The translations under genes were made by a program, and so were the position numbers. The notes under the pieces were generated by a model that worked only from the letters and a program-made list of their open reading frames with translations, made no database searches and was not told the origin of the DNA. Source: Rhodobacter sp. (GTDB lineage Bacteria; Pseudomonadota; Alphaproteobacteria; Rhodobacterales; Rhodobacteraceae). From it: a stretch of DNA of 18,478 bases. This document shows positions 2,081-15,217 of the stretch, in pieces. The stretch spans positions 1 to 18,478 of the forward strand of contig PNND01000146.1 of assembly GCA_013824045.1 (NCBI GenBank), written 5' to 3'. Numbering within the stretch: the stretch's first letter is position 1; every line of letters starts with the position of its first letter.

Positions 2081-3130
2081 ATGCCCCTGACTGCCGCCTT
2101 CGCCGTTCCCGGCGCGCTGACCACCCTGACGGGGGGGTTTTTCTATGACCGGCGACTGGTAGAGGGCTTGAGCGGCCTTGGCCATGATATCCGGGTGGTA
2201 ACGCTGCCTGACGGGTTTCCCGATCCGGGAGACGCGGCGATGCGGATGGCGCTGGCGCAGCTGCAGGCGCTGCCTGCGGATATGCCGGTGATCGTGGACG
2301 GGCTGGCCTTTGGCGCGCTGCCAACGGACGGGGTGGCGCGGATGGCGGCCCCGATCATTGCGATGGTGCATCATCCGCTGGCGCTGGAGACAGGTCTCGA
2401 TGCGGCTGTGGCCGGCGCCTTGCGGGCGCGGGAGCGGGACAATCTGGGATTTGCGCGGCATGTTCTGGTGCCCAGCCCGCATACCAAGGCGGTCCTGATG
2501 GCCGAATACGGGGTGGCCGCAGAGAAGATCACTGTGCTTGTGCCGGGGATCGACCGGGTGGCCGGGGCGGCTGTCGCGAAGGCCGATCCGCCGCTGATCC
2601 TGTCGGTGGGTATTCTGCATCCGCGCAAGGGGCATGATGTGCTGATCGCGGCGCTGGCGGCGATTGGCGATCTGGACTGGCAGGCGGTGATCGTGGGCAA
2701 TCCGTGGGATGCGGCGCATGTGGCCGATCTGGGCTGGCGGATCGCTGACGCGGGCATGTCGGGGCGTATCCGGCTGGCGGGCGCGGTGGATATGGATGAG
2801 CGGGACCGGCTTTACGGTGCGGCATCGGTGTTCGCGCTGGCGACGCGGTATGAGGGGTATGGCATCGTGTTCAACGAGGCCTTGGCGCAGGGCTTGCCCA
2901 TCGTGAGTTGCCGAACGGGCGCGGTGCCGGACACGGTGCCGCCGGATGCGGGGTTGCTGGTGGGGGTGGATGACGCGGCGGCCTTTGCCGGGGCCTTGCG
3001 GCGGGTGCTGGAGGACCCTGCGCTGCGGGGCGGGATGGCGGCGGCGGCGGCGCGGGCCGGGGCAGCGCTGCCCGGTTGGGACGATGTGGCGCGGCGGGCG
3101 GCGGTGGTTCTGGCGGGAGTGGCGGTATGA
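2081..3130 (+). CDS. Glycosyltransferase family 4 protein
   Basis: A 349-residue GT-B fold enzyme, normal length for GT4, expected to transfer a sugar from an activated donor to an unknown acceptor on the cytoplasmic side. The N-terminal domain has the glycine-rich loop GALTTLTGGFFYDRRL (about 11-26). The C-terminal donor-binding domain begins near PLILSVGILHPRKGHD (171-186). It carries the retaining-GT signature E-x7-E as E258 to E266 in YEGYGIVFNEALAQG. There is no signal peptide or membrane helix. No in-frame start exists between the ATG at 2081 and the preceding stop. It is first in an operon: its TGA overlaps the phosphatase ATG. Donor and acceptor cannot be read from sequence; the sugar-phosphate-type phosphatase next door suggests a glycoconjugate. 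Confidence 0.9.
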   Translation: MPLTAAFAVPGALTTLTGGFFYDRRLVEGLSGLGHDIRVVTLPDGFPDPGDAAMRMALAQLQALPADMPVIVDGLAFGALPTDGVARMAAPIIAMVHHPLALETGLDAAVAGALRARERDNLGFARHVLVPSPHTKAVLMAEYGVAAEKITVLVPGIDRVAGAAVAKADPPLILSVGILHPRKGHDVLIAALAAIGDLDWQAVIVGNPWDAAHVADLGWRIADAGMSGRIRLAGAVDMDERDRLYGAASVFALATRYEGYGIVFNEALAQGLPIVSCRTGAVPDTVPPDAGLLVGVDDAAAFAGALRRVLEDPALRGGMAAAAARAGAALPGWDDVARRAAVVLAGVAV

Positions 3131-3909
3131 GCGGGTTGGGTGTGGAGCTTGCGCTGGCGGTAACGGCGGCGGAGGAGGCGGGGGAGATCCTGCTGCGCCA
3201 TTACCGGGCGCGGGACCGGTTGACGGTATCCTCAAAGCGGGCGGGGGATTTCGTATCGGAGGCGGATGTGGCGGCCGAGGCGCATCTGCGCGGGCGGTTG
3301 CTGGGGGAATGGCCGGGCGATGGCTGGCTGGGCGAGGAAACGGCGGCTGCGGAGGGCGGGCGGCGCTGGGTTGTCGATCCGCTGGACGGGACGACGAACT
3401 TTCTGCGCGGCATCGGGCATTGGTGCGTGTCGGTCGGGCTGGAGGTGGGGGGGCGGCCGGTGATGGGCGTGGTGCATGATCCGCTGCGGGGCGAGACATT
3501 TGCGGCTGCGCCGGGGGGCGGGGTGATGCTGAACGGGCGGGCCGTGGGATTGGCGCCGACGGAGGATATGGCGGGGGCGTTGTTCGGGACGGGGGTGCCG
3601 TTCGGCGGAATGGCGCATATCGGGGACCATGCCGCCGATATCGCGCGGCTGATGCCGCATTGCGCGGGCGTGCGGCGGATGGGGGCGGCGGCGCTGGATC
3701 TGGCCTATGTGGCGGCGGGGCGGCTGGACGGGTTCTGGGAGCGGCGGTTGCAGCGGTGGGACATCGCGGCGGGGCTTGCGCTGCTGGCAGAGGCAGGTGC
3801 GCGCGTGGAAGGGTTGGTGCCGGGCGAGGACCCTTGGGAAACGGGGACCGTGGTGACGGCGGTGCCTGCGCTGTTTGACCGCTTTGCCGGGCTGTTGCGG
3901 GATGGATGA
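3127..3909 (+). CDS. Inositol monophosphatase family protein (SuhB/HisN/CysQ superfamily)
   Basis: A 260-residue Mg-dependent, Li-sensitive-type phosphatase. Metal ligands are visible in order: Glu70/Glu71 in WLGEET, Asp84 and Asp87 in DPLDGTTNF (84-92), and Asp212 in WDIAAG (211-216). All key residues are present, so it should be active on a small phosphorylated substrate such as inositol phosphate, histidinol phosphate or a phosphoadenosine. The sequence around DPLDGTTNFLRGIGHW is closest to the IMPase subgroup, but the substrate cannot be fixed. The ATG at 3127 overlaps the GT4 stop in an ATGA arrangement, so the two are translationally coupled. The last bases overlap the start of the kinase-like gene. 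Longer N-terminal extensions would be glycine-rich shadow sequence and are rejected. Confidence 0.93.
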   Translation: MSGLGVELALAVTAAEEAGEILLRHYRARDRLTVSSKRAGDFVSEADVAAEAHLRGRLLGEWPGDGWLGEETAAAEGGRRWVVDPLDGTTNFLRGIGHWCVSVGLEVGGRPVMGVVHDPLRGETFAAAPGGGVMLNGRAVGLAPTEDMAGALFGTGVPFGGMAHIGDHAADIARLMPHCAGVRRMGAAALDLAYVAAGRLDGFWERRLQRWDIAAGLALLAEAGARVEGLVPGEDPWETGTVVTAVPALFDRFAGLLRDG

Positions 3910-5218
3910 GGGCGAGGGGCGGGCGGTCCCGAGCGGGCGGTTGCGGCGGATGGTGGCGTTGGGCGGTTTGGCGACGGGGATTGGCGGGCGCGTGCTGGCC
4001 GAGGGCGCGATGCGGCTGGCGCAGGGGGAGCGCCCAAGCCTGCCGGACCTGCTGCTGACGCCGGGCAATGCGCGGCGCGTGACGGATCAGTTGGCGCAGT
4101 TGCGCGGGGCGGCGATGAAGGTGGGGCAGCTTCTGTCGATGGATGCGGGGGAGATGCTGCCTGCGGAATTGGCTGGCATTCTGGCGCGGCTGAGGGCGGA
4201 TGCCGAGCCGATGCCGCCCGCGCAGTTGCGGAGGGTATTGGATGGGGCCTGGGGTGCCGGGTGGCTGGGGCGGTTCCGGCGGTTTGATGTGCGGCCCATC
4301 GCGTCGGCCTCCATCGGGCAGGTGCATCGGGCGCAGACGAAGGACGGGCGCGATCTGGCGATAAAGGTGCAATATCCGGGGATCCGGGCGAGCATCGACA
4401 GCGACGTGGACAATGTGGCGGCGCTGATGCGGATGTCGGGACTGGTGCCGGGGCGGCTGGACGTGAAGCCGCTCTTGGCCGAGGCGAAGCGGCAGTTGCA
4501 TGAGGAGGCGGACTACCGGCGCGAGGCGGCGCAGATGCGGCGGTTCGGGGAATTGCTGGCGGGGCGGGCGGGGTTCGTGGTGCCGGTGCCACAGGAGGAT
4601 CTGTCGGGCGGCGAGGTGCTGGCGATGGATTATGTGGACAGCCTGCCCATCGAGGTGCTGGAGGATGCGCCGCAAGAGGTGCGGGATGATGTGGCGGCGC
4701 GGCTGATCGGGCTGGTGCTGGAGGAGTTGTTCGACTTCAACCTGATGCAGACCGATCCGAATTTTGCGAATTTCCGCTGGCAGGCGGAAACGGGGCGTGT
4801 GGTGCTGCTGGATTTCGGCGCAGCGCGGAGTTTTCCCGATGGGCTGGCGGAGCGGTTCCGCGAGGTGGTGCGGGCCGGGATCGCGGGGGAGCCAGAGGCG
4901 ATGCTACAAGCGATGGTGGCGATGGGCTATCTGCCGGAAGGATTGGCCGAGGGGCATCGGCAGGCGGTGGTGGAGCTGGCCGATCTTGCCTTTGGGCCGC
5001 TGCGGGCGGGGGGTGTTTATGATTTCGCGCGGCGCGATCTGGTGATGGAATTGCGCGACCGGGGGATGGCCTTGGGGATGGACCGCGACCTGTGGCACGT
5101 GCCGCCGCCCGAGGTGCTGTTTTTGCATCGCAAGTTCGGGGGGCTGTATCTGCTGGTGGCGCGGCTGAGGGCGCGGGTCGATCTGGACCGGGTGATGGGG
5201 CGTTATTTCGCGGATTGA
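3902..5218 (+). CDS. ABC1/UbiB/COQ8 family atypical kinase
   Basis: A 438-residue protein of the UbiB/COQ8 protein-kinase-like family, which supports isoprenoid-lipid (ubiquinone) metabolism through ATPase activity. The family-specific KxGQ motif is present as KVGQ (73-76). The alanine-rich nucleotide loop reads ASASIGQVHRA (134-144), the lysine is Lys155 in AIKVQYPG, and the metal motif is LDFGAAR (303-309). The catalytic-loop segment is QTDPNFAN (283-290), the form I associate with mitochondrial COQ8/ABC1 rather than the HADPHPGN of classical bacterial UbiB. There is no C-terminal pair of membrane helices as in E. coli UbiB. The ATG at 3902 overlaps the phosphatase stop by eight bases, so this is the third gene of the operon. 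The 3' end overlaps the convergent FkbM gene by 16 bp. Confidence 0.92.
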   Translation: MDEGEGRAVPSGRLRRMVALGGLATGIGGRVLAEGAMRLAQGERPSLPDLLLTPGNARRVTDQLAQLRGAAMKVGQLLSMDAGEMLPAELAGILARLRADAEPMPPAQLRRVLDGAWGAGWLGRFRRFDVRPIASASIGQVHRAQTKDGRDLAIKVQYPGIRASIDSDVDNVAALMRMSGLVPGRLDVKPLLAEAKRQLHEEADYRREAAQMRRFGELLAGRAGFVVPVPQEDLSGGEVLAMDYVDSLPIEVLEDAPQEVRDDVAARLIGLVLEELFDFNLMQTDPNFANFRWQAETGRVVLLDFGAARSFPDGLAERFREVVRAGIAGEPEAMLQAMVAMGYLPEGLAEGHRQAVVELADLAFGPLRAGGVYDFARRDLVMELRDRGMALGMDRDLWHVPPPEVLFLHRKFGGLYLLVARLRARVDLDRVMGRYFAD

Positions 5219-5943
5219 AGCCGTGCGTAGAGGTCGCCGGATTTTTCGCCGGGCGGCAGGGAGCGGAGCCATGCGATGGTATCGGTGGCCTTGCGCCAGT
5301 CTTGCCAGAGAAACTGCCCGCTTTCCCCGCGTACGGGATTGAAGCGGTAGGGGCCGAGGGTTTGCAGCCGTTCGATCACGCGGACTGTCTGATCGGGCAG
5401 ATCGGGAAGGTATTCCACGGAGACCAGAGGCAGCGGACGGCTGACGCCGGAGAGGACGTCAAGCTCAAACCCTTCGACATCGATCTTCACATAGGCGGGC
5501 AGGCCGTGGGTTTCGATCAGGCGGTCCAGTGTTGTGACGCGGACGCTTTGCTGCTTGTCCCATCTGACATGGGCGAAGCCGGGGGTCGCCCCGGCGGTGG
5601 CTGCGAAATCGGGCTGCAGCGAGGAGACGGTGGGATGCAGCGAGGACACGGCCATGGTGGCGGTGGTTTCCTGCGGGCCTGCGGCGGCCTCGATCAGGGT
5701 GATGTCGCGCGGCAGGGTGCGGCGCAGGAAGGTGGCGAAGGGTTCCTGCGGCTCCAGTGCCACGACACGCGCCCCGGCGGCACGCATGGCGCGGGCACGG
5801 GTGCCGACATGGGCACCGACATCAAAGACCAGATCGCCGGGGGAGAGCAGGCTTTGGTAGAAGCGGCGCAAGGGTAGGGTGCGGATGGGGTTGTTGTAGA
5901 TGATCAGGGAACGGGCCAGACCCAGCCAAACGCGAAAACCCAT
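5203..5943 (-). CDS. FkbM-family SAM-dependent methyltransferase
   Basis: A 246-residue class I methyltransferase of the FkbM type, which O-methylates sugars or secondary-metabolite hydroxyls. Motif I is LVFDVGAHVGTRA (38-50), followed by the acidic strand end VVALEPQE. The FkbM-specific post-motif reads YVKIDVEGFELDVL (151-164). A Ser/Thr-rich insertion with the repeated phrase SSLHPTVSSLQP lies at about 100-111. I chose the ATG at 5943 because AAGGGG precedes it at good spacing; an upstream start would add 29 residues of unstructured sequence. It is transcribed convergently with the kinase operon, and the two stop codons lie inside each other's genes (overlap 5203-5218). It is divergent from the RibA-like operon across 179 bases. 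The acceptor is unknown. Confidence 0.9.
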   Translation of the reverse strand: MGFRVWLGLARSLIIYNNPIRTLPLRRFYQSLLSPGDLVFDVGAHVGTRARAMRAAGARVVALEPQEPFATFLRRTLPRDITLIEAAAGPQETTATMAVSSLHPTVSSLQPDFAATAGATPGFAHVRWDKQQSVRVTTLDRLIETHGLPAYVKIDVEGFELDVLSGVSRPLPLVSVEYLPDLPDQTVRVIERLQTLGPYRFNPVRGESGQFLWQDWRKATDTIAWLRSLPPGEKSGDLYARLQSAK

Positions 5944-6122
5944 GTTCTGCCCCTTGTCGTTACGCACGCCCTGCCGTGGCTTGAGAGTAGGACGGGTGGC
6001 GCGCTGTCGAGATGCAAGTTCCGCGCCCACGGAAACGTGAACGGATCATCGAATTTCTGTCATCCCCCTTGCCGCGTGAGTCGGCGGACTAGGTAACGGC
6101 TGACATCTTGCCCGGGATTGCC

Positions 6123-7247
6123 ATGACTGTTCCTAACCGCGCGCTGCGTGCGGACCCATTGATTGAAAACCAGTTTCTGCCGACAAGCCGCGAGCGCGTG
6201 ATGCGTGCGCGCAGCGATTTGCGGCTGGGTCTGCCGGTGGTGGTGACGGGGCCGGGCGATGCCCTGATGCTGCTGGCGATTGAGGGCCTGTCGGAGGCGC
6301 GGTTTGCAGCGGCGGTGCAGGCGGGCGGGGCCGCGCTGGTGCTGACGGGCAGGCGGGCAGTTGCGCTGGGGCTGGATGGTGCTGCGCCGGTGGTGCGGCT
6401 GGAGGTGACTGGCCAGAGTTTCGCGCAGGTGCAGCGTCTGGCCGATCCGGTGCGGGATGGGGCGTTGCGGGGACCTGTCGCGGTGCCGGTGCTGCCGGGC
6501 GGTTTGGTGCAGGAGGCGGGGATCGCGCTGGCCCGGGCGGCGCAGCTGTTGCCGGCGGTGATATCGGTGCCGCTGGCCGATGCGGGGCGGGTGGCCCGGG
6601 ATCAGGGGCTGACGCTGGTTGCGGCCGGGGATGTGCTGGCCGAACTGGCGCGGATGACACCGCAGCAGGAGGTGAGCGCGGCGGCGCTGCCGATGGTGGT
6701 ATCAGAGGCGGGCCGCGTGCATGTGTTCCGCCCGGATGATGGCGGGGCGGAGCATTACGCGATCGAGGTGGGGGTCATTGATCCGGCGGGGCCGGTGCTG
6801 GTGCGGCTGCATTCGGCCTGTTTTACGGGCGATGTGCTGGGCAGCCGGAAATGCGATTGCGGCCCGCAGTTGCAGGCGGCTATGGCGGCGATGGCTGAGG
6901 GCGGGGGTGGGGTGTTGCTCTACCTCAATCAGGAAGGGCGCGGGATCGGGCTGGCCAACAAGATGCGGGCCTATGCCTTGCAGGATCGTGGGCTGGACAC
7001 GGTGGAGGCGAACCATCACCTTGGGTTCGAAGATGACGAGCGGGATTTCCGCATCGGGGCGGCGCTGCTGGCGCGTTTGGGGATTTCCGAGGTGCGGCTG
7101 ATGACCAACAATCCGGCCAAGGTGGCCATGCTGACAGCGCAGGGGGTGCGGGTGGCGGCACGGGTGCCGCTGGCCGTGGGCCGGACCGCGCAGAATGCGC
7201 GCTATCTGGCGGTCAAGGCGCAGAAATCCGGGCATCTTTTGCCATGA
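6123..7247 (+). CDS. ribA: GTP cyclohydrolase II with degenerate DHBP-synthase N-terminal domain (RibBA-like)
   Basis: 374 residues. The C-terminal half (about 190-374) is a complete GTP cyclohydrolase II, converting GTP to 2,5-diamino-6-ribosylamino-pyrimidinone phosphate plus formate. It has zinc ligands Cys233, Cys244 and Cys246 in SACFTGDVLGSRKCDCG, plus EGRGIGL (271-277), DERDF (305-309), TNNPAKV (328-334) and the terminal KAQKSGHLL. The N-terminal half follows the DHBP-synthase layout (RSDLRLGLPVVV near 30-41; EAGIALARAAQLLPAVIS near 131-148). It has lost the acidic DDEDRENEGD metal site, now about TGPGDALML, and the GHTE motif, now GGLVQE. It therefore should not make DHBP. ATG 6123 has GGGA upstream. 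The ATGA overlap with the dehydrogenase makes it the first gene of a five-gene operon. It is probably a paralogue of the housekeeping RibBA. Confidence 0.9.
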   Translation: MTVPNRALRADPLIENQFLPTSRERVMRARSDLRLGLPVVVTGPGDALMLLAIEGLSEARFAAAVQAGGAALVLTGRRAVALGLDGAAPVVRLEVTGQSFAQVQRLADPVRDGALRGPVAVPVLPGGLVQEAGIALARAAQLLPAVISVPLADAGRVARDQGLTLVAAGDVLAELARMTPQQEVSAAALPMVVSEAGRVHVFRPDDGGAEHYAIEVGVIDPAGPVLVRLHSACFTGDVLGSRKCDCGPQLQAAMAAMAEGGGGVLLYLNQEGRGIGLANKMRAYALQDRGLDTVEANHHLGFEDDERDFRIGAALLARLGISEVRLMTNNPAKVAMLTAQGVRVAARVPLAVGRTAQNARYLAVKAQKSGHLLP

Positions 7248-8188
7248 CGGCGCGGGCGCTGTGGTGCGTGGCCTCCGGACAGGCCGAAATTCGGGATGCG
7301 GCGATGGGCGAGGGCGTGGCCGTGCGGGCGCTGTGGTCCGGGATTAGCCGGGGGACGGAGCGGCTGGTGTTCGGCGGTGGCGTGCCTGAGGCGGAATGGG
7401 CGCGGATGCGCGCGCCCTTTCAGGAGGGAACGTTCCCGTTTCCGGTGAAGTATGGCTACAGCATGGTGGGCGAGGCGACCGAAGGCGCGCTGGCGGGGCG
7501 GGCGGTGTTCGCGCTGTTTCCGCATCAGACCGCGTTCCGCCTGCCCGAGGCGGCGCTGATCGCGGTGCCCGATGGCGTGCCTGCGGCGCGTGCGGTGCTG
7601 GCCGCCAATATGGAGACGGCGCTGAACATCCTGTGGGACAGCGGGGCCGGGGCCGGGGACCGGATCGCGGTTGTGGGTGCGGGCGTTGTGGGGGCGCTGG
7701 TGGGGTATCTTTGCGCGCGGCTGCCGGGGGCAGAGGTGGTGCTGGTGGACCCGGTGGTGGAGCGCGGTGCGCTGGCGGCGGCGCTGGGCTGCGGGTTTGC
7801 TCTGCCCGGTGATGCGCCGGTTGAGTGCGATGTGGTGATCCATGCCAGTGCCTCGGCGGCGGGGCTGGCCTCGGCGCTGGGCTGCGCGGGGATGGAAGCC
7901 GTGGTGGTGGAGGCAAGTTGGCATGGCGCGGGGGAGACGCCCGTGCCGCTGGGCGGGGCGTTCCACAGCCGGCGGTTGCGGCTGATCAGTTCGCAGGTGG
8001 GGCAGGTGCCGCCTTTGCGCGCGCCGCGCTGGACCTATCGGCGGCGGCTGGAGAAGGCGCTGGACTTGCTGCGCGATCCGGTGCTTGAGGGGATGATTTC
8101 GGGGGAGAGCAGGTTTGACGATCTGCCCGCCCAATATGGCGCGGTGCTGTCCGCGCCCGGCACGCTGTGCCATCGCATTCGCTATTGA
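7244..8188 (+). CDS. MDR-superfamily dehydrogenase lacking canonical zinc ligands
   Basis: 314 residues, short for a medium-chain alcohol dehydrogenase (usually 340-370). The N-terminal GroES-like half carries WSGISRGTER (31-40), a signature shared with BchC-like and sugar-type dehydrogenases. It lacks the Cys/His/Glu catalytic-zinc set and the four-Cys structural-zinc lobe. The Rossmann half shows VVGAGVVGALVG (143-154) and the strand end VVLVDP with Asp169, which points to NAD(H) rather than NADP(H). A downstream block GGAFHSRRLRLISSQVG is conserved in this subgroup as I know it. The ATG overlaps the RibA-like stop (ATGA). Position in the operon suggests oxidation or reduction of a hydroxyl on a GTP-derived intermediate, possibly its ribityl or ribosyl chain; this is inference. 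No photosynthesis genes are nearby, so BchC itself is unlikely. Confidence 0.82.
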   Translation: MTARALWCVASGQAEIRDAAMGEGVAVRALWSGISRGTERLVFGGGVPEAEWARMRAPFQEGTFPFPVKYGYSMVGEATEGALAGRAVFALFPHQTAFRLPEAALIAVPDGVPAARAVLAANMETALNILWDSGAGAGDRIAVVGAGVVGALVGYLCARLPGAEVVLVDPVVERGALAAALGCGFALPGDAPVECDVVIHASASAAGLASALGCAGMEAVVVEASWHGAGETPVPLGGAFHSRRLRLISSQVGQVPPLRAPRWTYRRRLEKALDLLRDPVLEGMISGESRFDDLPAQYGAVLSAPGTLCHRIRY

Positions 8189-8203
8189 ACAAAGGAAAGA
8201 CGC

Positions 8204-8599
8204 ATGTTCGCTGTTGAGGTTCGGGACCATATCATGATCGCGCATTCGCTGCCCTCGCCGGTATTCGGCCCGGCGCAGGGGATGCATGGGGCGACGTTTA
8301 CGGTGGATGCGGCCTTCTTTGCCGAGGATATCGACGATCATGGGTTGGTGGTGGATATCGGGCTGGCGGTGGATGCGCTGGCGGCGGTGCTGGCCCCGCT
8401 GCGCTATCGCAATCTGGATGAGGTGCCGGAGTTCGCGGGCAAGTTCACCACGACGGAGTTTCTGTGCGGCGTGATCCACAAGGCGATGGTGGCGCGGCTG
8501 CGGGCGGGTGAGTTGAAGGATGCGGGCCGGGTGAAGCGGCTGCGGATCACGCTGCATGAGAGCCATATGGCGCGGGCCTGGTGCGAGGGTGAGGTCTGA
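8204..8599 (+). CDS. 6-pyruvoyl-tetrahydropterin synthase/QueD-fold protein with a degenerate active site
   Basis: 131 residues, the length of a single PTPS/QueD T-fold subunit. His14 (MIAHSLP) and His28 (MHGATF) match the first two zinc ligands, but the usual HGH is HGA, so the third ligand is Ala30. The catalytic Cys position (Cys27 of E. coli QueD) is Ala24. The LDHHYLN segment holding the Asp/His catalytic pair reads LRYRNLD. The conserved late Glu survives in LHESHMARAW. The fold is clear, but classic PTPS or QueD chemistry looks impossible. It may bind a pterin-like ligand or use a different mechanism. AAAGGAAAGA (8191-8200) is a strong ribosome-binding site. It lies 15 bases after the dehydrogenase and 3 bases before the methyltransferase gene, third in the operon. 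Confidence 0.85.
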   Translation: MFAVEVRDHIMIAHSLPSPVFGPAQGMHGATFTVDAAFFAEDIDDHGLVVDIGLAVDALAAVLAPLRYRNLDEVPEFAGKFTTTEFLCGVIHKAMVARLRAGELKDAGRVKRLRITLHESHMARAWCEGEV

Positions 8600-8602
8600 G
8601 CG

Positions 8603-9364
8603 ATGGGCTTTTCCGCCGATTGGCTGGCTTTGCGCGAACCTGCTGATCATGCGGCGCGGGATGGCGGCCTGCTGGCTGCGGCGGCGCAGGTGGCGGGGCC
8701 GGTGATCGTGGATCTGGGCTGCGGCACAGGGTCGACGCGGCGGGCTTTCGGCGGGTTAGCGGATGGGGCGCTTTGGCGGATGGTGGATGCCGATGAGGGC
8801 TTGCTGCGTCTGGCGGGGGGCGAGGGGCATTGCCTTGACCTGAACGAGGTGGAGGCCTTGCCTTTGGATGGGGCGGGGCTGGTGACGGCCTCGGCGCTGT
8901 TCGATCTGGTGTCGGCGGAGTGGGTTGAGCGGTTTGTGGCGCGGGTGGCGGGGTTGCGGCTGCCGGTCTATGCGGCGCTGAGCTATGATGGGGTGATGGC
9001 GTGGGAGCCAACCTTGCCCGAGGATGCGGCGGTGACCGAGGCGTTCAACCGGCATCAGGGGGGCGACAAGGGCTTTGGCCCGGCGCTGGGGCCGCTGGCG
9101 GCGGATCATCTGGCGGCGCGGTTGCGGGCAGCGGGCTATGCGGTGCGCGCGGCGGAGAGCCCGTGGCGGCTGGGGCCGGATCAGGCGGCCTTGCAGGCAG
9201 AACTGCTGGGCGGGATTGCGCAGGCGGCGGGTGAGGCGGGGTTTGCCGGGGCGGATGCGTGGCTGGCGGCGCGGCGGGCGCTGCTGGGGCAGGGGGAATG
9301 CCGGATCGGGCATCGCGACCTGTTGGCAGTGCCGCCTGCGATGGCTGCGAGTGAAGGGGGCTGA
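8603..9364 (+). CDS. Class I SAM-dependent methyltransferase
   Basis: 253 residues with a Rossmann-like SAM-binding domain. Motif I is VIVDLGCGTGSTRRAF (34-49), the motif II region is WRMVDADEGLLRLAGG, and motif IV falls around LVTASALFDLVSAEWVERF. The C-terminal 110 residues are helical and alanine-rich, with LAADHLAARLRAAGYAVR resembling the late strand region of small-molecule methyltransferases. There is no membrane segment. It starts three bases after the PTPS-like stop, with a weak Shine-Dalgarno inside the preceding gene, so translation is probably coupled. The substrate is unknown; the operon context suggests a pyrimidine or pterin intermediate. Confidence 0.85.
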   Translation: MGFSADWLALREPADHAARDGGLLAAAAQVAGPVIVDLGCGTGSTRRAFGGLADGALWRMVDADEGLLRLAGGEGHCLDLNEVEALPLDGAGLVTASALFDLVSAEWVERFVARVAGLRLPVYAALSYDGVMAWEPTLPEDAAVTEAFNRHQGGDKGFGPALGPLAADHLAARLRAAGYAVRAAESPWRLGPDQAALQAELLGGIAQAAGEAGFAGADAWLAARRALLGQGECRIGHRDLLAVPPAMAASEGG

Positions 9365-9366
9365 GG

Positions 9367-10212
9367 ATGCAGACGGTTGAGGTCACACCCAAGGTCTGGG
9401 AACGGATATTGCAGGTCCGGGCGGGGCATGGCTGCGCCTGCTGCGGGCGGTGGACGCCGGGCGAGCGCGCAGCGCTGGACCTGTATGCGCCCTTGGCGCG
9501 GCGCGATCTGGGACCGGTGACGGTGGCGCAGATCGGGCAGTCGCTGGATGGGCGGGTGGCCACTGTGACGGGCGATGCGCGCGATGTTTCGGGGCCGGAG
9601 GGATTGGCCCATCTGCACCGGATGCGGGCGCTGGTGGATGGGGTGCTGATTGGGGTGCGCACGGCGATCCATGACCAGCCGCAACTGACCGTGCGGATGT
9701 GCAGCGGGCCGAACCCGGCACGGATCGTGGTGGACCCGCGCGGGCGCTTGCCCGACGATGTGGCGCTGTTCCGTGCCGATGGGGCGCGGCGGATCGTGGT
9801 GCAGGGCGTGGCACGCACGCGGCCCCAGGGGGTGGAAGTGGTCACCCTGCCGCTCTGCGATGGGTGGCTGGACCCGGCGGAGATATTAGCAGCCTTGCAT
9901 GACCTTGGGCTGAATAGCGTGATGGTCGAAGGCGGCGGGATCACCATTGCGCGGTTTCTGGAGGCGGGGCTGCTCAATCGGTTGCAGGTGGCGGTGTCGC
10001 CCTTGCTGATCGGGGGCGGGCCGCAGGGATTGACTTTGCAAAGCCCGGTGGCGCGGCTGTCGGATGCGATGCGGCCTGAGACGCGGGCCTATGGGCTGGG
10101 CCCCGAGGTGGTGTTTGATTGCGCGCTGACGCCCAGTGCGGCGATGGCGTGGCAGCCTGTTCACGCGGCGCGGTTGGTGGCAGAAGGCGCGCGCGCCCTG
10201 CGGGTGCGGTAG
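9367..10212 (+). CDS. Stand-alone RibD-type reductase domain protein (RibD_C / dihydrofolate-reductase-like)
   Basis: 281 residues. The C-terminal domain of RibD reduces the ribosyl side chain of the GTP cyclohydrolase II product to ribityl using NADPH. The domain spans about 50-265: it opens with VAQIGQSLDGRVAT (53-66), continues with HLHRMRALVDGVLIGVRTA (83-101, substrate contact), then VEGGG (187-191) before the final strands SPLLIGGG. No cytidine-deaminase domain is attached. Instead there is a 50-residue N-terminus with the Cys cluster HGCACCGRW (21-29), possibly a metal site or a vestige. It starts two bases after the methyltransferase stop and ends the five-gene operon; the convergent b561 gene ends 11 bases further on. 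Co-occurrence with a GTP cyclohydrolase II paralogue supports a dedicated pathway separate from riboflavin. Confidence 0.88.
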   Translation: MQTVEVTPKVWERILQVRAGHGCACCGRWTPGERAALDLYAPLARRDLGPVTVAQIGQSLDGRVATVTGDARDVSGPEGLAHLHRMRALVDGVLIGVRTAIHDQPQLTVRMCSGPNPARIVVDPRGRLPDDVALFRADGARRIVVQGVARTRPQGVEVVTLPLCDGWLDPAEILAALHDLGLNSVMVEGGGITIARFLEAGLLNRLQVAVSPLLIGGGPQGLTLQSPVARLSDAMRPETRAYGLGPEVVFDCALTPSAAMAWQPVHAARLVAEGARALRVR

Positions 10213-10223
10213 GGCACGGGATG

Positions 10224-10772
10224 TTAGCGGCGGACCGGCGGCCAGATGCGGGACCATGTGCCATCGCGCAGGATCAGCGCGTGGTGCAGGGCGGCGGCGA
10301 TGTGCAGAGCCAGAAGGGCGGCAATTGCATAGGCGCCCAGTTCATGCACCGCTTTGGCCGTGGCGGCGAGGGTTTCCGATTTTGGCACGAGCGTAGGCAG
10401 GCCGAGCCGATCGAGCGCCTCGATTGGGAAGCCGCCAGCGCGGACGCGGATATAACCCGACAGCGGCATGACCAGCATCAGCACGTAAAGCAGGCCATGG
10501 CTGGCATGGGCAGCGCGGCGCTGCCATGCGGGCAGGCTTTCGGACAGGGGCGGGGCCTTGTGGCGCAGTTTGACGACGATGCGCAGGATCACAAGGATCA
10601 GGACGAGGACGCCCATATTCTTGTGCATGATGAACAGCGTGTTGCCGAGCGCGCGGGGCAGGCCCTGCTGCACCATCAGAAAGCCGGCGGCGATCATCGG
10701 CAGGATCATCAGCGCGATGATCCAGTGAAGGGCGCGTTGGCCGCTGCTGTAGCCGGGGGACGGTGTCTGCAT
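10224..10772 (-). CDS. Cytochrome b561-type di-heme membrane protein
   Basis: 182 residues, the usual size of bacterial CybB-like b561. Four membrane helices are visible, at about 14-35, 48-65, 90-108 and 142-162. Heme-ligand histidines are His16 (RALHWI), His50 (FIMHKN), one or both His in AAHASHGLLY (about 88 and 91), and His156 in LALHIAAALHH. It is expected to pass electrons from the quinol pool, possibly quenching superoxide. It lies on the strand opposite to its neighbours, between the reductase gene (convergent, 11 bp between stops) and the phosphatidyltransferase gene (divergent, 23 bp between start codons). This very short divergent gap means each promoter must reach into the other gene. 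The family call is firm; any link to the surrounding pathway is speculation. Confidence 0.92.
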   Translation of the reverse strand: MQTPSPGYSSGQRALHWIIALMILPMIAAGFLMVQQGLPRALGNTLFIMHKNMGVLVLILVILRIVVKLRHKAPPLSESLPAWQRRAAHASHGLLYVLMLVMPLSGYIRVRAGGFPIEALDRLGLPTLVPKSETLAATAKAVHELGAYAIAALLALHIAAALHHALILRDGTWSRIWPPVRR

Positions 10773-10795
10773 CTGAGCCTGCCTTCTGTGATGCC

Positions 10796-11512
10796 ATGAC
10801 AGTAGGGGTTGAGAAGATCAGATCAAGGGTTGGTGTGCCTGCCGGGTTCTGGCCTGCGGCGGGGCTGGCCGTGCTGGTGGCTTTGGTGCCGCTTGTGTTG
10901 CGGCCAGTGGGTGGCGGGATCGCCGCCCTGATCGCCGTGGCAGGGACGGGGGCGGTGCTGGTGTTCATCCGGGGCAAGCTGGGGCTGCATTACCCCCACG
11001 GGCGGTTTGGGCTGTGCAATATGGTGACGCTGGCGCGGGCGGCGATGGTGGCGGCGCTGGCGGGGATGCTGTGGCAGGGGCCGCAGGGATGGGATGTGCT
11101 GGTGCTGGCCACGGTGGCGCTGGCGCTGGACGGGGTGGATGGCTGGCTGGCGCGGCGGAGCGGGCTGACATCGGAGTTCGGCGCGCGGTTCGACATGGAG
11201 ACGGATGCGGCGCTGGCGCTGGTGCTGGCGGCGCATGTCTGGCTGGGTGGGATGACGGGGGCGGAGGTGCTGCTGCTGGGGGCGATGCGCTATGCCTTTG
11301 TCGCGGCCTTCTGGCCGTTTCCTTGGCTGGCGGCGGCCTTGCCCGACAGGTTCGGGCGCAAGGTGGTGTGCGTGGTGCAGATCGCCGCGCTGATCCTGTT
11401 GCAGGTGCCGGGACTGATGCCCGAACTGGCGCGGGGGGTGGCTTGGGGCGCGGTGGCGGCGTTGGTCTGGTCATTCGGGCGGGATGTGCTGTGGCTGTGG
11501 AGGCATCGGTAA
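10796..11512 (+). CDS. CDP-alcohol phosphatidyltransferase family membrane protein
   Basis: 238 residues. The complete catalytic signature D-x2-DG-x2-AR-x8-G-x3-D-x3-D is present, starting at Asp112 (DGVDGWLARR) and ending FDMETD. These enzymes move a phosphatidyl or other phospho-alcohol group from a CDP-linked donor to a hydroxyl acceptor in the inner membrane. About six membrane helices are visible, two of them before the motif (about 18-37 and 40-58). The start is uncertain: ATG 10796 lacks a good Shine-Dalgarno, and GTG at 10835 with AAGGG upstream would shorten it by 13 residues. The acceptor could be glycerol phosphate, inositol phosphate, serine, or something specific to this locus. 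The TAA overlaps the next ATG by one base (TAATG), so this is the first gene of a coupled operon. Confidence 0.9.
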   Translation: MTVGVEKIRSRVGVPAGFWPAAGLAVLVALVPLVLRPVGGGIAALIAVAGTGAVLVFIRGKLGLHYPHGRFGLCNMVTLARAAMVAALAGMLWQGPQGWDVLVLATVALALDGVDGWLARRSGLTSEFGARFDMETDAALALVLAAHVWLGGMTGAEVLLLGAMRYAFVAAFWPFPWLAAALPDRFGRKVVCVVQIAALILLQVPGLMPELARGVAWGAVAALVWSFGRDVLWLWRHR

Positions 11513-13140
11513 TGAGTGGGGGGATGATCTGGCGCGCGGTGCTGGCCGCCCTGATCCTGCATCTGGTGTTGATCCAGCCCAATCATCCGGGCGCGATGAC
11601 GTGGGGCGCGTTGCGGCTGTTTCCGCTGGAATTGCCGGTGCTGCTGTTGGGGTTGCCACTGCTGGGCGACGGGCGCGCGGGGCGTGTGCTGCGCGGGGTG
11701 CTGGCGGCTGTTTTGGTGCTGCTGGTGGTGTTGAAGGCGGCGGATTTTGCGATGTTCACGGCCTTTGGCCGGGGGTTCAACCCGGTGGGTGACCTGCCGC
11801 TGGCGGCGGCAGGGTTCAACCTGTTGTCGGGGTCGGTGGGGGTGCTGGGTGCGGTGCTGGCCTATGGGGCGATTGCCGGGGTGCTGGTGGCGCTGGGCTG
11901 GGCGCTGTGGTGGGCGATGGGGGTTTGGGCGCGGTTGGCCGTCTTTGGCGCGCGGCCGTGGTTACGGCGGGGCGCAGGGGTGGTGGCGCTGGTCTGTGCG
12001 GTGGCGGGGGTCTGGGAGGCGGCGGCGATCATGAACCGCTGGAAGATGCCGTTTGATCCACCCGGCGCGGCCTTTACCGCGCGGGTTGGGGCCGAGCGGG
12101 TACGTCTAGTGCTGCGGACGGTTGAGGATCTGCGGACCTTTCGGGTGGCGGCGGCGGCGGACCCGTTCCGGGGGCAGGAGGGGTTGCTGGACCGGATCGA
12201 CCGAGATGTGGTGGTGTTGTTCATCGAGAGCTATGGGCGGGCGAATGTGGAGGGGCCGCTTTATGCCGGGACGACTCGTGCGGTGTTGACCGATGCGGAG
12301 AGGGCGCTGGGAGCAGCGGGGTTTGTGATGCGGTCGGGATACCTCACCTCATCCACCAAGGGGGGGCAAAGCTGGCTGGCCCATGCGACGTTTGCCAAGG
12401 GGCTGCGGATCAATGATCAGGTGCGCTATCGCGCGCTGTTGGTGAGCGGGCGGGAGGGGCTGTTCCACATCGCGCAGCGGTCGGGGTTCGAGACGGCGGC
12501 GGTGATGCCAGCGATCACGATGGCTTGGCCGGAAGGGCGGGGGATGGGGTTTGACCGCATCCTTGCGGCGGCGGATCTGGGCTATCGCGGGTTGCCGTTC
12601 AACTGGGTGACAATGCCGGATCAGTTCACGCTGGCGGCGTTTGACCGGATGGTGCGGCAGGAGGCGGGGCGCGAGGGGCGGCTGTTTGCGCAGGTGGTGC
12701 TGATCTCGTCCCACGCGCCATGGGTGCCGGTGCCACGCATGGTGGATTGGGATGCGATGGGGGATGGCACGGTGTTCAACGCTATGGCGCAGGAGGGCGA
12801 TCCGCCCAATGTGGTGTGGCAGGATCGGGACCGTGTGCGCGATCAGTATCGCCAGTCTGTCGGCTATGCGCTGGAGGCGGTGTTCGGCTGGGCGGCGCGC
12901 ACGGCGGAGGAGATGCCGCTGATCGTGGTGCTGGGCGATCATCAGGCGGCGGGATTCGTGGCGCAGGAGGACCGGCTGGATGTGCCGGTGCATGTGATCG
13001 GGCCCGCCGATCTGGTGGAGGTCGCGGCGGGTTGGGGCTTTGCGCCGGGGCTTATCCCGCCTGAAGCACAGGTGGCGCTGCCGATGGAGGCGATGCGCGA
13101 TCTGTTTGTGAACGGTTATTCCAGTAAGGGGACACCGTGA
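11512..13140 (+). CDS. Membrane-anchored alkaline-phosphatase-superfamily transferase/sulfatase (LtaS/OpgB-like)
   Basis: 542 residues. The N-terminal 175 contain about five membrane helices, and a periplasmic catalytic domain follows from about residue 228. Catalytic elements are VVVLFIESYG with metal ligand Glu239, the nucleophile region TSSTKGGQSW with probable Thr282, SSHAPW (399-404), and LGDHQ with Asp476-His477. The arrangement is that of phosphoglycerol or phosphoethanolamine transferases and related sulfatase-like enzymes, which act on lipid or glycan head groups in the periplasm. The start is the ATG at 11512, overlapping the phosphatidyltransferase stop; the frame stays open upstream only as a shadow of that gene. 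The last base pairs overlap the next gene (GTGA). True sulfatase activity is unlikely because no C/S-x-P-x-R formylglycine motif is visible. Confidence 0.88.
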   Translation: MSGGMIWRAVLAALILHLVLIQPNHPGAMTWGALRLFPLELPVLLLGLPLLGDGRAGRVLRGVLAAVLVLLVVLKAADFAMFTAFGRGFNPVGDLPLAAAGFNLLSGSVGVLGAVLAYGAIAGVLVALGWALWWAMGVWARLAVFGARPWLRRGAGVVALVCAVAGVWEAAAIMNRWKMPFDPPGAAFTARVGAERVRLVLRTVEDLRTFRVAAAADPFRGQEGLLDRIDRDVVVLFIESYGRANVEGPLYAGTTRAVLTDAERALGAAGFVMRSGYLTSSTKGGQSWLAHATFAKGLRINDQVRYRALLVSGREGLFHIAQRSGFETAAVMPAITMAWPEGRGMGFDRILAAADLGYRGLPFNWVTMPDQFTLAAFDRMVRQEAGREGRLFAQVVLISSHAPWVPVPRMVDWDAMGDGTVFNAMAQEGDPPNVVWQDRDRVRDQYRQSVGYALEAVFGWAARTAEEMPLIVVLGDHQAAGFVAQEDRLDVPVHVIGPADLVEVAAGWGFAPGLIPPEAQVALPMEAMRDLFVNGYSSKGTP

Positions 13141-14060
13141 AGGGCACTGTCAAGACAGGCCTGAAGTTTGCTGTCGCTGTGGTGCTGATGGCATTGGTCT
13201 GGCGTATGGTGGACGGGGCCGAGGTGGCGACGCGGCTGCGGGCGCTGCGGCCGGGATGGGTGGTGGTGGCGGTGTTCTTGCTGCTGGGGCAGACCGTGCT
13301 GTCGGCGCTGCGCTGGCGGCTGACGGCGGCGCAATTGGGGCATCGGATGGGGCTGCGGCGCGCGCTGCGCGAGTATTTTCTGGCGCAGGTGGTGAACCTT
13401 GCCTTGCCTGGCGGGGTGCTGGGCGATGCGGGGCGTGCCGTGCGCGCAGGGGCGGTGGCGGGGCTGGAACGCGCCGGACAGGCGGTGGTGTTCGAGCGGC
13501 TGGCCGGGCAGGCGGCGCTGGTGGCGGTGGTGCTGATGGCGGCGCTGGGGGTCAGCCTTGCGCCGGGCGGGATCGTGCTGCCGGGCGCGATGCTGGCGGG
13601 GCTGGCCGTGGTGACGGTGGGGCTGCTGATGGCGGGGGGGCTGGTGGTGCTGACCGGGGCGCGCTGGCCGCGCGTGGCGGTATGGCGTGAAGCGGCGGCG
13701 CGGGCCGTCTTTGCGCGCGAGGTTTGGCCGCAGCAGGTTGCGTTAAGCTTGGGGACGGTGGCGGCGAACCTGCTGGCCTTTGCGGCCTGTGCGGCTGCGG
13801 TGGGTGTCTGGCTGCCCTTGGGGGCGGTTCTGGTGATCCTGCCGCTGGTGCTGTTCACCATGCTGGTGCCGCTGACCATCGGCGGCTGGGGCCTGCGCGA
13901 AGGGGCGGCGGTGGCGCTGTTTCCGCTGGCCGGTGCGACGGGGGCCGAAGGCTTTGCCGCCAGTGCCGCCTTTGGCGTGGTCTTCCTGCTGACATCCGTG
14001 CTGGGGATGGCACTGTGGCTTTGGCCGGGGCGGACAGAGCCGGGACGCCAGCAGGGTTAG
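13137..14060 (+). CDS. Flippase-like integral membrane protein (LPG synthase TM / UPF0104 family)
   Basis: 307 residues, seven to eight predicted membrane helices, with the family motifs LPGGVLGDAGR (90-100), FERLAGQ (119-125) and PLTIGGWGLREGA near residue 250. This is the membrane half of lysyl-phosphatidylglycerol synthase (MprF) without the aminoacyl-transferase domain. Stand-alone members are thought to move lipids or lipid-linked sugars across the membrane. The start codon is GTG at 13137, overlapping the previous TGA in a GTGA arrangement, so translation is coupled. It ends the operon; the convergent hypothetical gene stops two bases further on with no terminator between. With a lipid head-group transferase and a periplasmic phospho-transferase upstream, a role in exporting their product is reasonable inference. 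Confidence 0.9.
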   Translation: MKGTVKTGLKFAVAVVLMALVWRMVDGAEVATRLRALRPGWVVVAVFLLLGQTVLSALRWRLTAAQLGHRMGLRRALREYFLAQVVNLALPGGVLGDAGRAVRAGAVAGLERAGQAVVFERLAGQAALVAVVLMAALGVSLAPGGIVLPGAMLAGLAVVTVGLLMAGGLVVLTGARWPRVAVWREAAARAVFAREVWPQQVALSLGTVAANLLAFAACAAAVGVWLPLGAVLVILPLVLFTMLVPLTIGGWGLREGAAVALFPLAGATGAEGFAASAAFGVVFLLTSVLGMALWLWPGRTEPGRQQG

Positions 14061-14391: not shown

Positions 14392-14464
14392 CGTTCGTCA
14401 TTCTCTTTTGAAGAATATGGCCGTGAAGCAGAGCCCCAAGAGCCCTGCCTTGGAAAGTGTGCCG

Positions 14465-15217
14465 ATGAAAGAACCGACCGCCGTTCTGTCAGTGCAAGAC
14501 AGCCCCTTTGCGCGAAAGCTTTCGGCCTTTGTTCGGCTTTCGCAGGAAGAGATGGAGGCGATGTCGGACCTCTATCGCCGTCGCCGCCATTTCACGGTGG
14601 GCAGCGATATGATCCATCAGGGGCAGAAAGATCAATGCGCCTATGTGCTCGCCTCGGGGTGGGCGTCGTCTTACAAGATCCTTCCTGATGGCTCGCGCCA
14701 GATCGTGGATTTCCAGATCCCGGGCGATTTTCTGGGCCTGCGGTCGGTGCTGTTCCGCACGTCAGACCATAATGTGGAGCCGCTGACCCCGGTTCAGGCA
14801 TCGGAGGTGCAACAGAAGGACCTGCTGGATGTCTTTGGCCGCACGCCCCGGCTGGCGACAGCGGTGCTTTGGGCGGCATCACGGGATGAGGCCATGGTCG
14901 TGGAGCGTCTGGTCGACCTTGGGCGCCGCTCGGCGTCGGTGCGGATGGCGCATTTTCTGCTGGAACTGGGCTCGCGGCTGCGGATGGTCGGGCTGGCGGA
15001 CAAGACCGGTTATGCCTGCCCGTTGTCGCAATATCTGCTGGCGGATGCGCTGGGGCTGAGCGCGGTGCATGTGAACCGCGTGCTGCGCGAATTGCGGGAA
15101 GAGGGATTGCTGACCTTTCAGCGCGGGCGGGTCAGCTTTGACGATTATGACGGGCTGGTCGCACATGCGGAGTTTGACCGGAGCTACCTGGATCTAGACG
15201 GGCCGTTGCTGGGCTGA
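14465..15217 (+). CDS. Crp/Fnr family transcriptional regulator
   Basis: 250 residues. The N-terminal cyclic-nucleotide-binding-like beta-roll (about 20-130) includes the turn LPDGSRQIVDFQIPGDFLGL (73-92). A long dimerisation helix follows (about 132-170), then a winged helix-turn-helix with recognition region LGLSAVHVNRVLRELREEGLL (196-216). Only two cysteines (58 and 185) are present and not in the FNR pattern, so it should not hold an oxygen-sensing Fe-S cluster. The cAMP-contact Arg/Ser signature is also not evident, so the signal is unknown. I chose ATG 14465 because GGAAAG (14452-14457) is well placed; an in-frame ATG at 14417 would add 16 residues with a weaker site. It probably autoregulates through the palindrome in its leader. 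Confidence 0.92.
   Translation: MKEPTAVLSVQDSPFARKLSAFVRLSQEEMEAMSDLYRRRRHFTVGSDMIHQGQKDQCAYVLASGWASSYKILPDGSRQIVDFQIPGDFLGLRSVLFRTSDHNVEPLTPVQASEVQQKDLLDVFGRTPRLATAVLWAASRDEAMVVERLVDLGRRSASVRMAHFLLELGSRLRMVGLADKTGYACPLSQYLLADALGLSAVHVNRVLRELREEGLLTFQRGRVSFDDYDGLVAHAEFDRSYLDLDGPLLG

Follow-up and report, generated by a model that had tools for sequence, protein, structure and literature searches.

The window analysed here, a stretch of 18,478 nucleotides from Rhodobacter sp. (contig PNND01000146.1), carries what we judge, with somewhat more confidence than doubt, to be a copy of a widespread biosynthetic module that converts GTP to a pterin-type compound through a riboflavin-like start without deamination. 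At its centre lie five genes on the forward strand, encoding a RibA-like GTP cyclohydrolase II that has an additional N-terminal region and an ATG start (6123..7247), an MDR dehydrogenase of a BchC-like subfamily without the catalytic zinc Cys (7244..8188), a PTPS-like protein of the SCO6650/3d7j family (8204..8599), a class I SAM-dependent methyltransferase assigned from its structure model (8603..9364) and a RibD_C reductase without a deaminase domain (9367..10212); the MDR, PTPS-like and methyltransferase genes belong to the core of the cluster. As a preliminary description of this DNA had stated, the first two genes share an ATGA overlap and the following gaps measure 15, 3 and 2 bases. 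Pfam identified GTP_cyclohydro2 (198 bits), PTPS (72 bits) and RibD_C (127 bits), and returned no match at 1e-3 for the MDR or the methyltransferase.

Conservation and spread of the gene cluster

Twenty loci, drawn from named plasmids and from relatives, were compared with the window; genes for a GT4 glycosyltransferase, an inositol-phosphatase-like protein, an FkbM-family methyltransferase, a CDP-alcohol phosphatidyltransferase (CDP-OH), a sulfatase-like protein, a flippase-like protein and a cytochrome b561 recur beside the five. The five had been described as a unit, and their joint recurrence and conserved order in relatives are borne out across the loci compared, but the unit is larger than five genes, its GT4, CDP-OH, flippase, sulfatase-like and b561 partners having been missed.

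For a broader count, 101 loci were used, i.e., the window, loci L019-L038 and the best 80 of the 582 confirmed among at least 596 pattern matches in a scan of named genomes; all were picked by PTPS or MDR similarity, many end at contig ends, and matches were taken at E up to 1e-4. According to their titles, the 80 loci from named genomes come from Alpha- and Gammaproteobacteria, Burkholderiales and relatives, Actinomycetota, Acidobacteria and Gemmatimonadales. Methylosinus trichosporium OB3b is an example of a laboratory strain with the cluster. The PTPS-like gene is found in 101 loci, MDR in 100 (more safely 99, since L030 has none and L036 only a 45-bit match), GT4 in 96, the methyltransferase in 95, CDP-OH in 78, RibD_C in 69 and the flippase in 63, followed by RibA (46), the creatininase family (39), the sulfatase-like gene (27), FkbM (14), b561 (10) and the phosphatase (6). 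A re-run with extra queries gave 63 for RibD_C, 90 for the methyltransferase, 26 for the sulfatase-like gene and 11 for b561, the lower counts being taken to result from the rule of one gene per place applied with extended frames; the first counts are those used here. At L073 (9004-9978) the MDR match holds a stop codon, which could mean a damaged copy or a division into two frames.

Of 398 evenly drawn Pseudomonadota genomes, 27, the window's own included (about 7%), have a PTPS-like orthologue of at least 185 bits, the next match scoring 48.6 bits. At a threshold of 60 bits the 26 other loci of this draw hold MDR (26), GT4 (25), the methyltransferase (24), RibD_C (22), an MdoH-like gene (12), CDP-OH (12), RibA (11), the flippase (11), FkbM (8), b561 (6, with a seventh at 57 bits), the creatininase family (6), the sulfatase-like gene (5) and the phosphatase (1), so that MDR and the PTPS-like protein, not RibA, are the most constant members. 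Within the window's own family the PTPS-like gene is present in 13 of 149 genomes, and the PTPS-like family comprises at least 8000 protein clusters (8000 candidates were scored, all at E 1e-20 or better). A PTPS subfamily apart from the cluster family, scoring approximately 33-46 bits against the cluster profile, was seen in 37 genomes of one family of the same phylum (f38, 1.4-3.1 Mb).

Only the window, L019 and L125 showed the exact run RibA-MDR-PTPS-MT-RibD_C, where MT is the methyltransferase. Locus L027, from a relative in the window's genus, holds the module with no RibA match beside MDR, and RibA therefore seems dispensable at that locus, another RibA existing in the genome. The distances of MDR, PTPS, GT4, MT, CDP-OH and flippase agree with one another (rho 0.52-0.84, the maxima of 200 permutations being at most 0.20). 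Because the neighbours recur across phyla and their distances are correlated, the association of these genes is not due to chance. Similar sets had been expected in other Rhodobacterales; similar sets do recur, yet their spread is far wider, extending to other phyla and, in a looser form, to Haloarcula. On Haloarcula plasmids the MDR gene is accompanied by a PTPS-family gene, by GT4 and a CDP-alcohol transferase, and by either a methyltransferase or, at its position, an unnamed gene. It is not certain that the haloarchaeal set yields an identical product, since the haloarchaeal MDRs among those listed are 31-34% identical and the PTPS of Haloarcula locus L024 keeps the HxH zinc pair.

Proposed opening of GTP and the creatininase-family partner

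The RibA of the window passes TIGR00505 (216.5 bits, cut-off 205.85) and PRK00393 (244.3, cut-off 148) and falls below the PRK08815 equivalog cut-off (269.8 versus 464). Alignment to E. coli RibA (2bz0) shows that the zinc Cys triad and the equivalent of Tyr105 (Tyr284) are kept, while the second RibA of the same genome carries the same YLNQEGRGIGLANKMRAY stretch as the cluster copy. On the evidence of the curated models, the window RibA is thus predicted to be a normal GTP cyclohydrolase II, and these three observations overturn, for this gene, the earlier proposal that each of the five enzymes departs from its canonical form; the PTPS-like protein, the reductase and the MDR are indeed altered.

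In two of the three Haloarcula loci that were opened (L024 and L122), a gene for GTP cyclohydrolase IIa stands directly before MDR, the L024 protein matching Pfam GCH_III with 272 bits and the L122 copy being assigned by annotation; in the third, a gene of the creatininase family lies close by. GTP cyclohydrolase III, an enzyme of no relation to RibA, likewise opens GTP, and its replacement of RibA in Haloarcula suggests that the opened GTP ring is probably what the cluster needs.

Spoonamore and colleagues reportedly found in 2006 that Tyr105 of E. coli RibA is required for full deformylation, and that a Streptomyces RibA with Met at this position retains the formyl group. A cluster that depends on the deformylated compound would be expected to have a deformylase beside each RibA lacking this Tyr. 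Among 57 cluster RibAs, 33 have the Tyr and 24 lack it (Met in 17, His in 6 and Ile in 1), and a creatininase-family gene is present in 24 of the 24 loci of non-Tyr RibAs versus 13 of the 33 loci of Tyr RibAs (Fisher 5e-7, not corrected for kinship). The window is one of the 20 Tyr-RibA loci without a creatininase-family match, and extra queries over the 101 loci found no further creatininase. According to PMC9478397, a formamidase of the creatininase family, BrbF, acts in the riboflavin synthesis of Sinorhizobium.

The RibD_C reductase and the probable retention of the amino group

The reductase lacks the N-terminal deaminase domain of bifunctional RibD, and its residue at the position of Lys151/152 is Gln. 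As described in PMC3631187, this Lys, which is Lys152 of the E. coli and Lys151 of the B. subtilis enzyme, biases bacterial RibD towards the deaminated 2-oxo substrate; enzymes of the 2-amino substrate have Thr (fungi) or Asn (archaea) at this position, and yeast RIB7 used the 2-oxo substrate approximately threefold better once its Thr had been changed to Lys. At this position the cluster reductases, 79 of 91 of which could be parsed, have Gln in 66 cases, His in 10, Ser in 3 and Lys in none; the remaining 12 comprise eight divergent actinomycete proteins and four missed by the motif pattern, of which three show Gln. The RibDs of the window's family, nine in all, have Lys in all eight that were parsed. 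Furthermore, the profile of the cluster reductases lies closest to the archaeal diaminopyrimidine reductase 6p8c (176 bits), bifunctional bacterial RibDs scoring at most 123, yet the window protein taken alone stays below every NCBIfam reductase cut-off. From the missing Lys and this profile match we infer that the 2-amino group would be kept during reduction, which fits the conserved Glu of the PTPS-like protein described below. The earlier suggestion that GTP is opened to a diaminopyrimidine whose ribosyl chain is then reduced is strengthened by the GCH_III replacement, the Tyr/creatininase pattern and the missing Lys.

The PTPS-like protein

The closest solved structure to the PTPS-like protein is 3d7j (‘Uncharacterized protein SCO6650’) with 208.8 bits, PTPS and QueD chains scoring 19-30 bits. 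In alignments to PDB chains the position of the catalytic Cys is Ala, the Asp-His pair is replaced by Asn/Arg-Tyr (Arg-Tyr in the window), and the HGH zinc pair is HGA in the window and in every aligned row of the bacterial family, while a Glu near the C-terminal end is invariant across the aligned rows. The lost positions are, we assume, the catalytic residues of PTPS, and the kept Glu its pterin anchor. The 3d7j paper is said to report that SCO6650 has no zinc, no triad and no PTPS activity, but a pterin-type pocket.

That the protein is a QueD, so that the cluster would feed queuosine or folate, is extremely improbable. The plasmid records do annotate a 6-carboxytetrahydropterin synthase and 9 of 10 family genomes have no PTPS-family match besides this protein; against this, it scores 27.6 bits versus the QueD NCBIfam cut-off of 89.25, its catalytic residues are lost, and the gene is present in just 13 of the 149 family genomes. 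The kept Glu in the pocket would also suit a soluble tetrahydropterin route in which RibD_C, which shares its fold with DHFR, reduces a dihydropterin for cytosolic hydroxylases; such a route leaves the GTP cyclohydrolase II/III and creatininase-family partners and the membrane genes unexplained, and is considered quite unlikely.

Probable separation from riboflavin synthesis

The genome of the window holds a second RibA on contig C39, which is 57% identical to the cluster RibA, and a further GTP_cyclohydro2 match beside RibH on contig C65. In the ten family genomes searched, the window's own included, RibH is present in all ten, FolE in six, and GTP_cyclohydro2 matches number two to four per genome (of the four in G074, two are fragments of a single frame). 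A long RibD_C frame (370-479 aa) lies away from the cluster in 9 of 9 near-complete relatives, and all eight of those that were read contain the deaminase motif; in the window's own assembly, which is 83% complete, no RibD_C other than the cluster copy was found. That the cluster should not hold the only GTP cyclohydrolase II and RibD reductase is therefore confirmed in the genome itself for RibA and, for the reductase, in its nine relatives, the cluster copy standing alone in the incomplete assembly. RibE, RibH, FolE and QueC/E were noted before as absent nearby, and none was found among the window genes put to family libraries, a set that does not include every frame of the window.

A spare or specialised operon for riboflavin supply, in which RibA and RibD_C would add flux and the other genes modify the flavin, nevertheless deserves consideration, as the cluster RibA, a normal GTP cyclohydrolase II by its models, closely resembles the second copy, and RibD_C is related to the RibD reductase. 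This is very unlikely, however, given that riboflavin synthase, lumazine synthase and deaminase are not annotated in 13 annotated plasmid loci (no search for RibE and RibH was made in the remaining loci), none of the 79 parsed reductases has Lys151/152, the riboflavin genes are located elsewhere in the genomes searched, and the most constant members of the cluster are MDR and the PTPS-like protein rather than RibA. The second RibA and the separate riboflavin genes make it likely, as had been proposed, that the cluster makes a separate product.

The dehydrogenase, methyltransferase and glycosyltransferase

In the MDR of the window a Ser is aligned at the catalytic zinc Cys of zinc-dependent alcohol dehydrogenases. 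Its predicted model has the MDR fold, with polyol dehydrogenases and also enoyl reductases among the top structure matches. The GT4 glycosyltransferase is encoded at 2081..3130 on the forward strand and resembles the GT4 placed between PTPS and methyltransferase in many loci; its PDB profile matches include D-inositol 3-phosphate glycosyltransferase and phosphatidylinositol-mannoside mannosyltransferase. Structure searches with GT4 and MDR indicated no substrate. The methyltransferase is modelled with a class I SAM fold (mean pLDDT 94.9), for which a search indicated no substrate class.

ToxA is among the many weak PDB matches of this methyltransferase (21 bits), and the opening logic is that of the toxoflavin genes, so that a secreted natural product akin to toxoflavin, an azapteridine or another such compound made with GTP cyclohydrolase II, RibD-like and methyltransferase enzymes and exported by the flippase, may be proposed. 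We regard this as unlikely: ToxA scores no better than many other methyltransferases, the cluster reductase has no deaminase domain, and an occurrence in at least 8000 protein clusters and in haloarchaea looks more like that of a cofactor or structural metabolite.

Membrane and redox partners

Downstream of the five genes lies a gene on the reverse strand for a prokaryotic cytochrome b561 (10224..10772; PF01292, 102.7 bits), which frequently adjoins RibD_C in the loci, followed on the forward strand by CDP-OH (10763..11512; PF01066, 51 bits), a sulfatase/LTA-synthase-like membrane protein (11512..13140), which shares a TAATG overlap with the CDP-OH stop, and a flippase-like LPG_synthase_TM protein (13137..14060; PF03706, 125 bits), which overlaps the sulfatase-like gene in a GTGA. 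Cytochrome b561 was found in 7 of 15 cluster loci from genomes that share the class of the window (taken as Alphaproteobacteria) versus approximately 0.26 expected by chance from 61 genes in about 70.6 Mb of those 15 genomes and 295 kb of loci; over all 101 loci it occurs in only 10. In three Rhizobiaceae (L119, L120 and L023) the cluster is on large plasmids, with RibD_C adjoining cytochrome b561.

The motif DGxDGxxAR...GxRxDMxxD is intact in the window CDP-OH protein and agrees with what we take to be the motif of CDP-alcohol phosphatidyltransferases, DG(x)2DG(x)2AR...G(x)3D(x)3D. The sulfatase-like protein, which has no Pfam match at 1e-3 and whose homologues are annotated as sulfatase, has conserved ESYG, GGQSW and GDHQ stretches, presumably the metal and nucleophile sites of the sulfatase fold. 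Unsupervised clustering of open reading frames, judged from the printed starts, returned mostly antisense or clade-specific groups and also yielded a gene for an MdoH-like membrane glucosyltransferase, which lies beside the cluster in 12 of the 26 even-draw loci and at L021 (7073-8872) and may represent an alternative membrane step.

On the other side of the five genes, the GT4 gene shares an ATGA overlap with that of an inositol-monophosphatase-family phosphatase (3127..3909, forward strand; PF00459, 185 bits), and an FkbM-family methyltransferase, another recurrent neighbour, is encoded on the reverse strand (5203..6030; PF05050, 57 bits). Overlapping the end of the phosphatase gene is one for an ABC1/UbiB-type kinase (3902-5218, forward strand), which is excluded from the module because only one other of the 101 loci (L037) has a match. 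Downstream of the module, at 14408-15217 on the forward strand, a frame read by itself resembles a putative regulator of the CRP/FNR type.

Proposed pathway

In the proposed route RibA would open GTP to 2,5-diamino-6-ribosylamino-pyrimidinone phosphate, a step for which the evidence above argues and which elsewhere would be performed by GTP cyclohydrolase III, or by a non-Tyr RibA together with a creatininase-family protein that removes the formyl group. RibD_C would then reduce the ribosyl chain to ribityl, the 2-amino group staying, as the discriminating residue suggests. The polyol-dehydrogenase-like MDR may next oxidise the C2' hydroxyl of the ribityl chain, after which the C5 amine could close on the new ketone to give a dihydropterin ring; the PTPS-like protein, which has the pterin Glu but not the catalytic residues, may bind the ring or guide its closure. 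From their families, the methyltransferase would methylate and GT4 glycosylate the product. Less surely, the CDP-alcohol phosphatidyltransferase might attach this product to a lipid phosphate, to be handled at the membrane by the flippase and the sulfatase-like protein. The neighbourhood of cytochrome b561 allows the guess that the product could take part in membrane electron transfer.

Several observations weigh against this route. We know of no product, assay or mutant of the cluster. RibA is absent from 15 of the 26 even-draw loci; in the Tyr/creatininase comparison, which is not corrected for kinship, 23 of the 24 non-Tyr RibAs are actinomycete, the Ile case being that of Halomonas halmophila (L086), and three creatininase proteins examined are nearer to MftE than to ArfB in NCBIfam, neither cut-off being passed (ArfB 19-37 bits versus 180). 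The window reductase lies below all NCBIfam reductase cut-offs (TIGR00227, 118.5 versus 150.15; TIGR01508, 97.3 versus 186.45; TIGR00326, 87.4 versus 156.35), RibD_C distances track those of the other genes least (rho 0.29-0.52), many Streptomyces loci of the 101-locus set have no RibD_C match, and the actinomycete RibD_C of L075, L083 and L113 are divergent, at 27-29% identity to that of the window. The haloarchaeal PTPS, with its HxH pair kept, need not perform the same chemistry. As regards the membrane steps, the CDP-alcohol transferase matches PDB enzymes weakly (best 35 bits) and is missing from 14 of the 26 even-draw loci, and 8 of the 12 MdoH-like loci are without both CDP-OH and flippase.

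The membrane part is therefore of at least two kinds, and lipid linkage may not be general; for this reason, and given the weak PDB matches of CDP-OH, lipid linkage is rated well below the early steps. Accepting it leads to a tentative and on balance doubtful extension, in which the product would be a membrane-anchored redox cofactor of a new class, shared by bacteria and haloarchaea, i.e., a 2-amino-pteridine that bears a polyol chain, is glycosylated and linked to a phosphatidyl group, and is made from ring-opened GTP, flipped and serviced by b561.

Comparison with known systems

Among the papers listed in searches of the open-licence PMC literature no description of the cluster was found, nor any mention of SCO6650, while SCO6655 appeared only as a table row; titles and abstract starts of the same literature held nothing relevant on a lipid pterin or on pterin with b561. 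The neighbours of the cluster are currently annotated as, for example, 6-carboxytetrahydropterin synthase and alcohol dehydrogenase. Should the compound prove to be a new cofactor, bacterial metabolism would include an overlooked part, and a small molecule not yet described may be made by many bacteria and by some archaea.

A close known system is the Streptomyces type, to which SCO6650 of Streptomyces coelicolor (3d7j) belongs. Loci such as L094 have the order PTPS-GT4-MT-flippase-creatininase-RibA, which fits the gene numbers SCO6650 to SCO6655. Work on SCO6655 is said to have established that this enzyme makes a formyl-retaining product, and the Streptomyces studies of SCO6650 and SCO6655 reportedly touched single genes. 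Compared to this type, the window has a RibA that keeps the Tyr, no creatininase match, a RibD_C, and GT4 in a separate place. As the 3d7j structure is already solved, the gene set makes an old loose end testable.

BchC, the dehydrogenase of bacteriochlorophyll synthesis, is a weak family match to the window MDR and, we assume, likewise lacks the zinc Cys, but the MDR scores 21.6 bits versus the NCBIfam cut-off of 291.25 and no photosynthesis gene is present among the window genes examined. The T-fold enzymes PTPS and QueD share the Pfam PTPS family and the pterin-binding Glu with the cluster protein, whereas the Cys, the Asp-His pair and one zinc His are lost in the bacterial cluster family. 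BrbF of Sinorhizobium (PMC9478397) is a creatininase-family protein beside a GTP cyclohydrolase, as in some cluster loci; unlike these, it serves riboflavin synthesis, and nothing in the window matches the cluster creatininase.

The archaeal and fungal order of riboflavin synthesis (ArfA/RibA, ArfB, reductase before deaminase) would share with the cluster the opening of GTP, an optional deformylation and a reduction with the 2-amino group in place. It differs in that the cluster has no deaminase domain, that MDR, the PTPS-like protein, the methyltransferase and GT4 follow, and that neither lumazine nor riboflavin synthase is annotated in the 13 annotated loci. The parts of the module are thus of known kinds and the type of pathway is that of GTP-derived cofactors, while the combination and the product have, to our knowledge, not been described.

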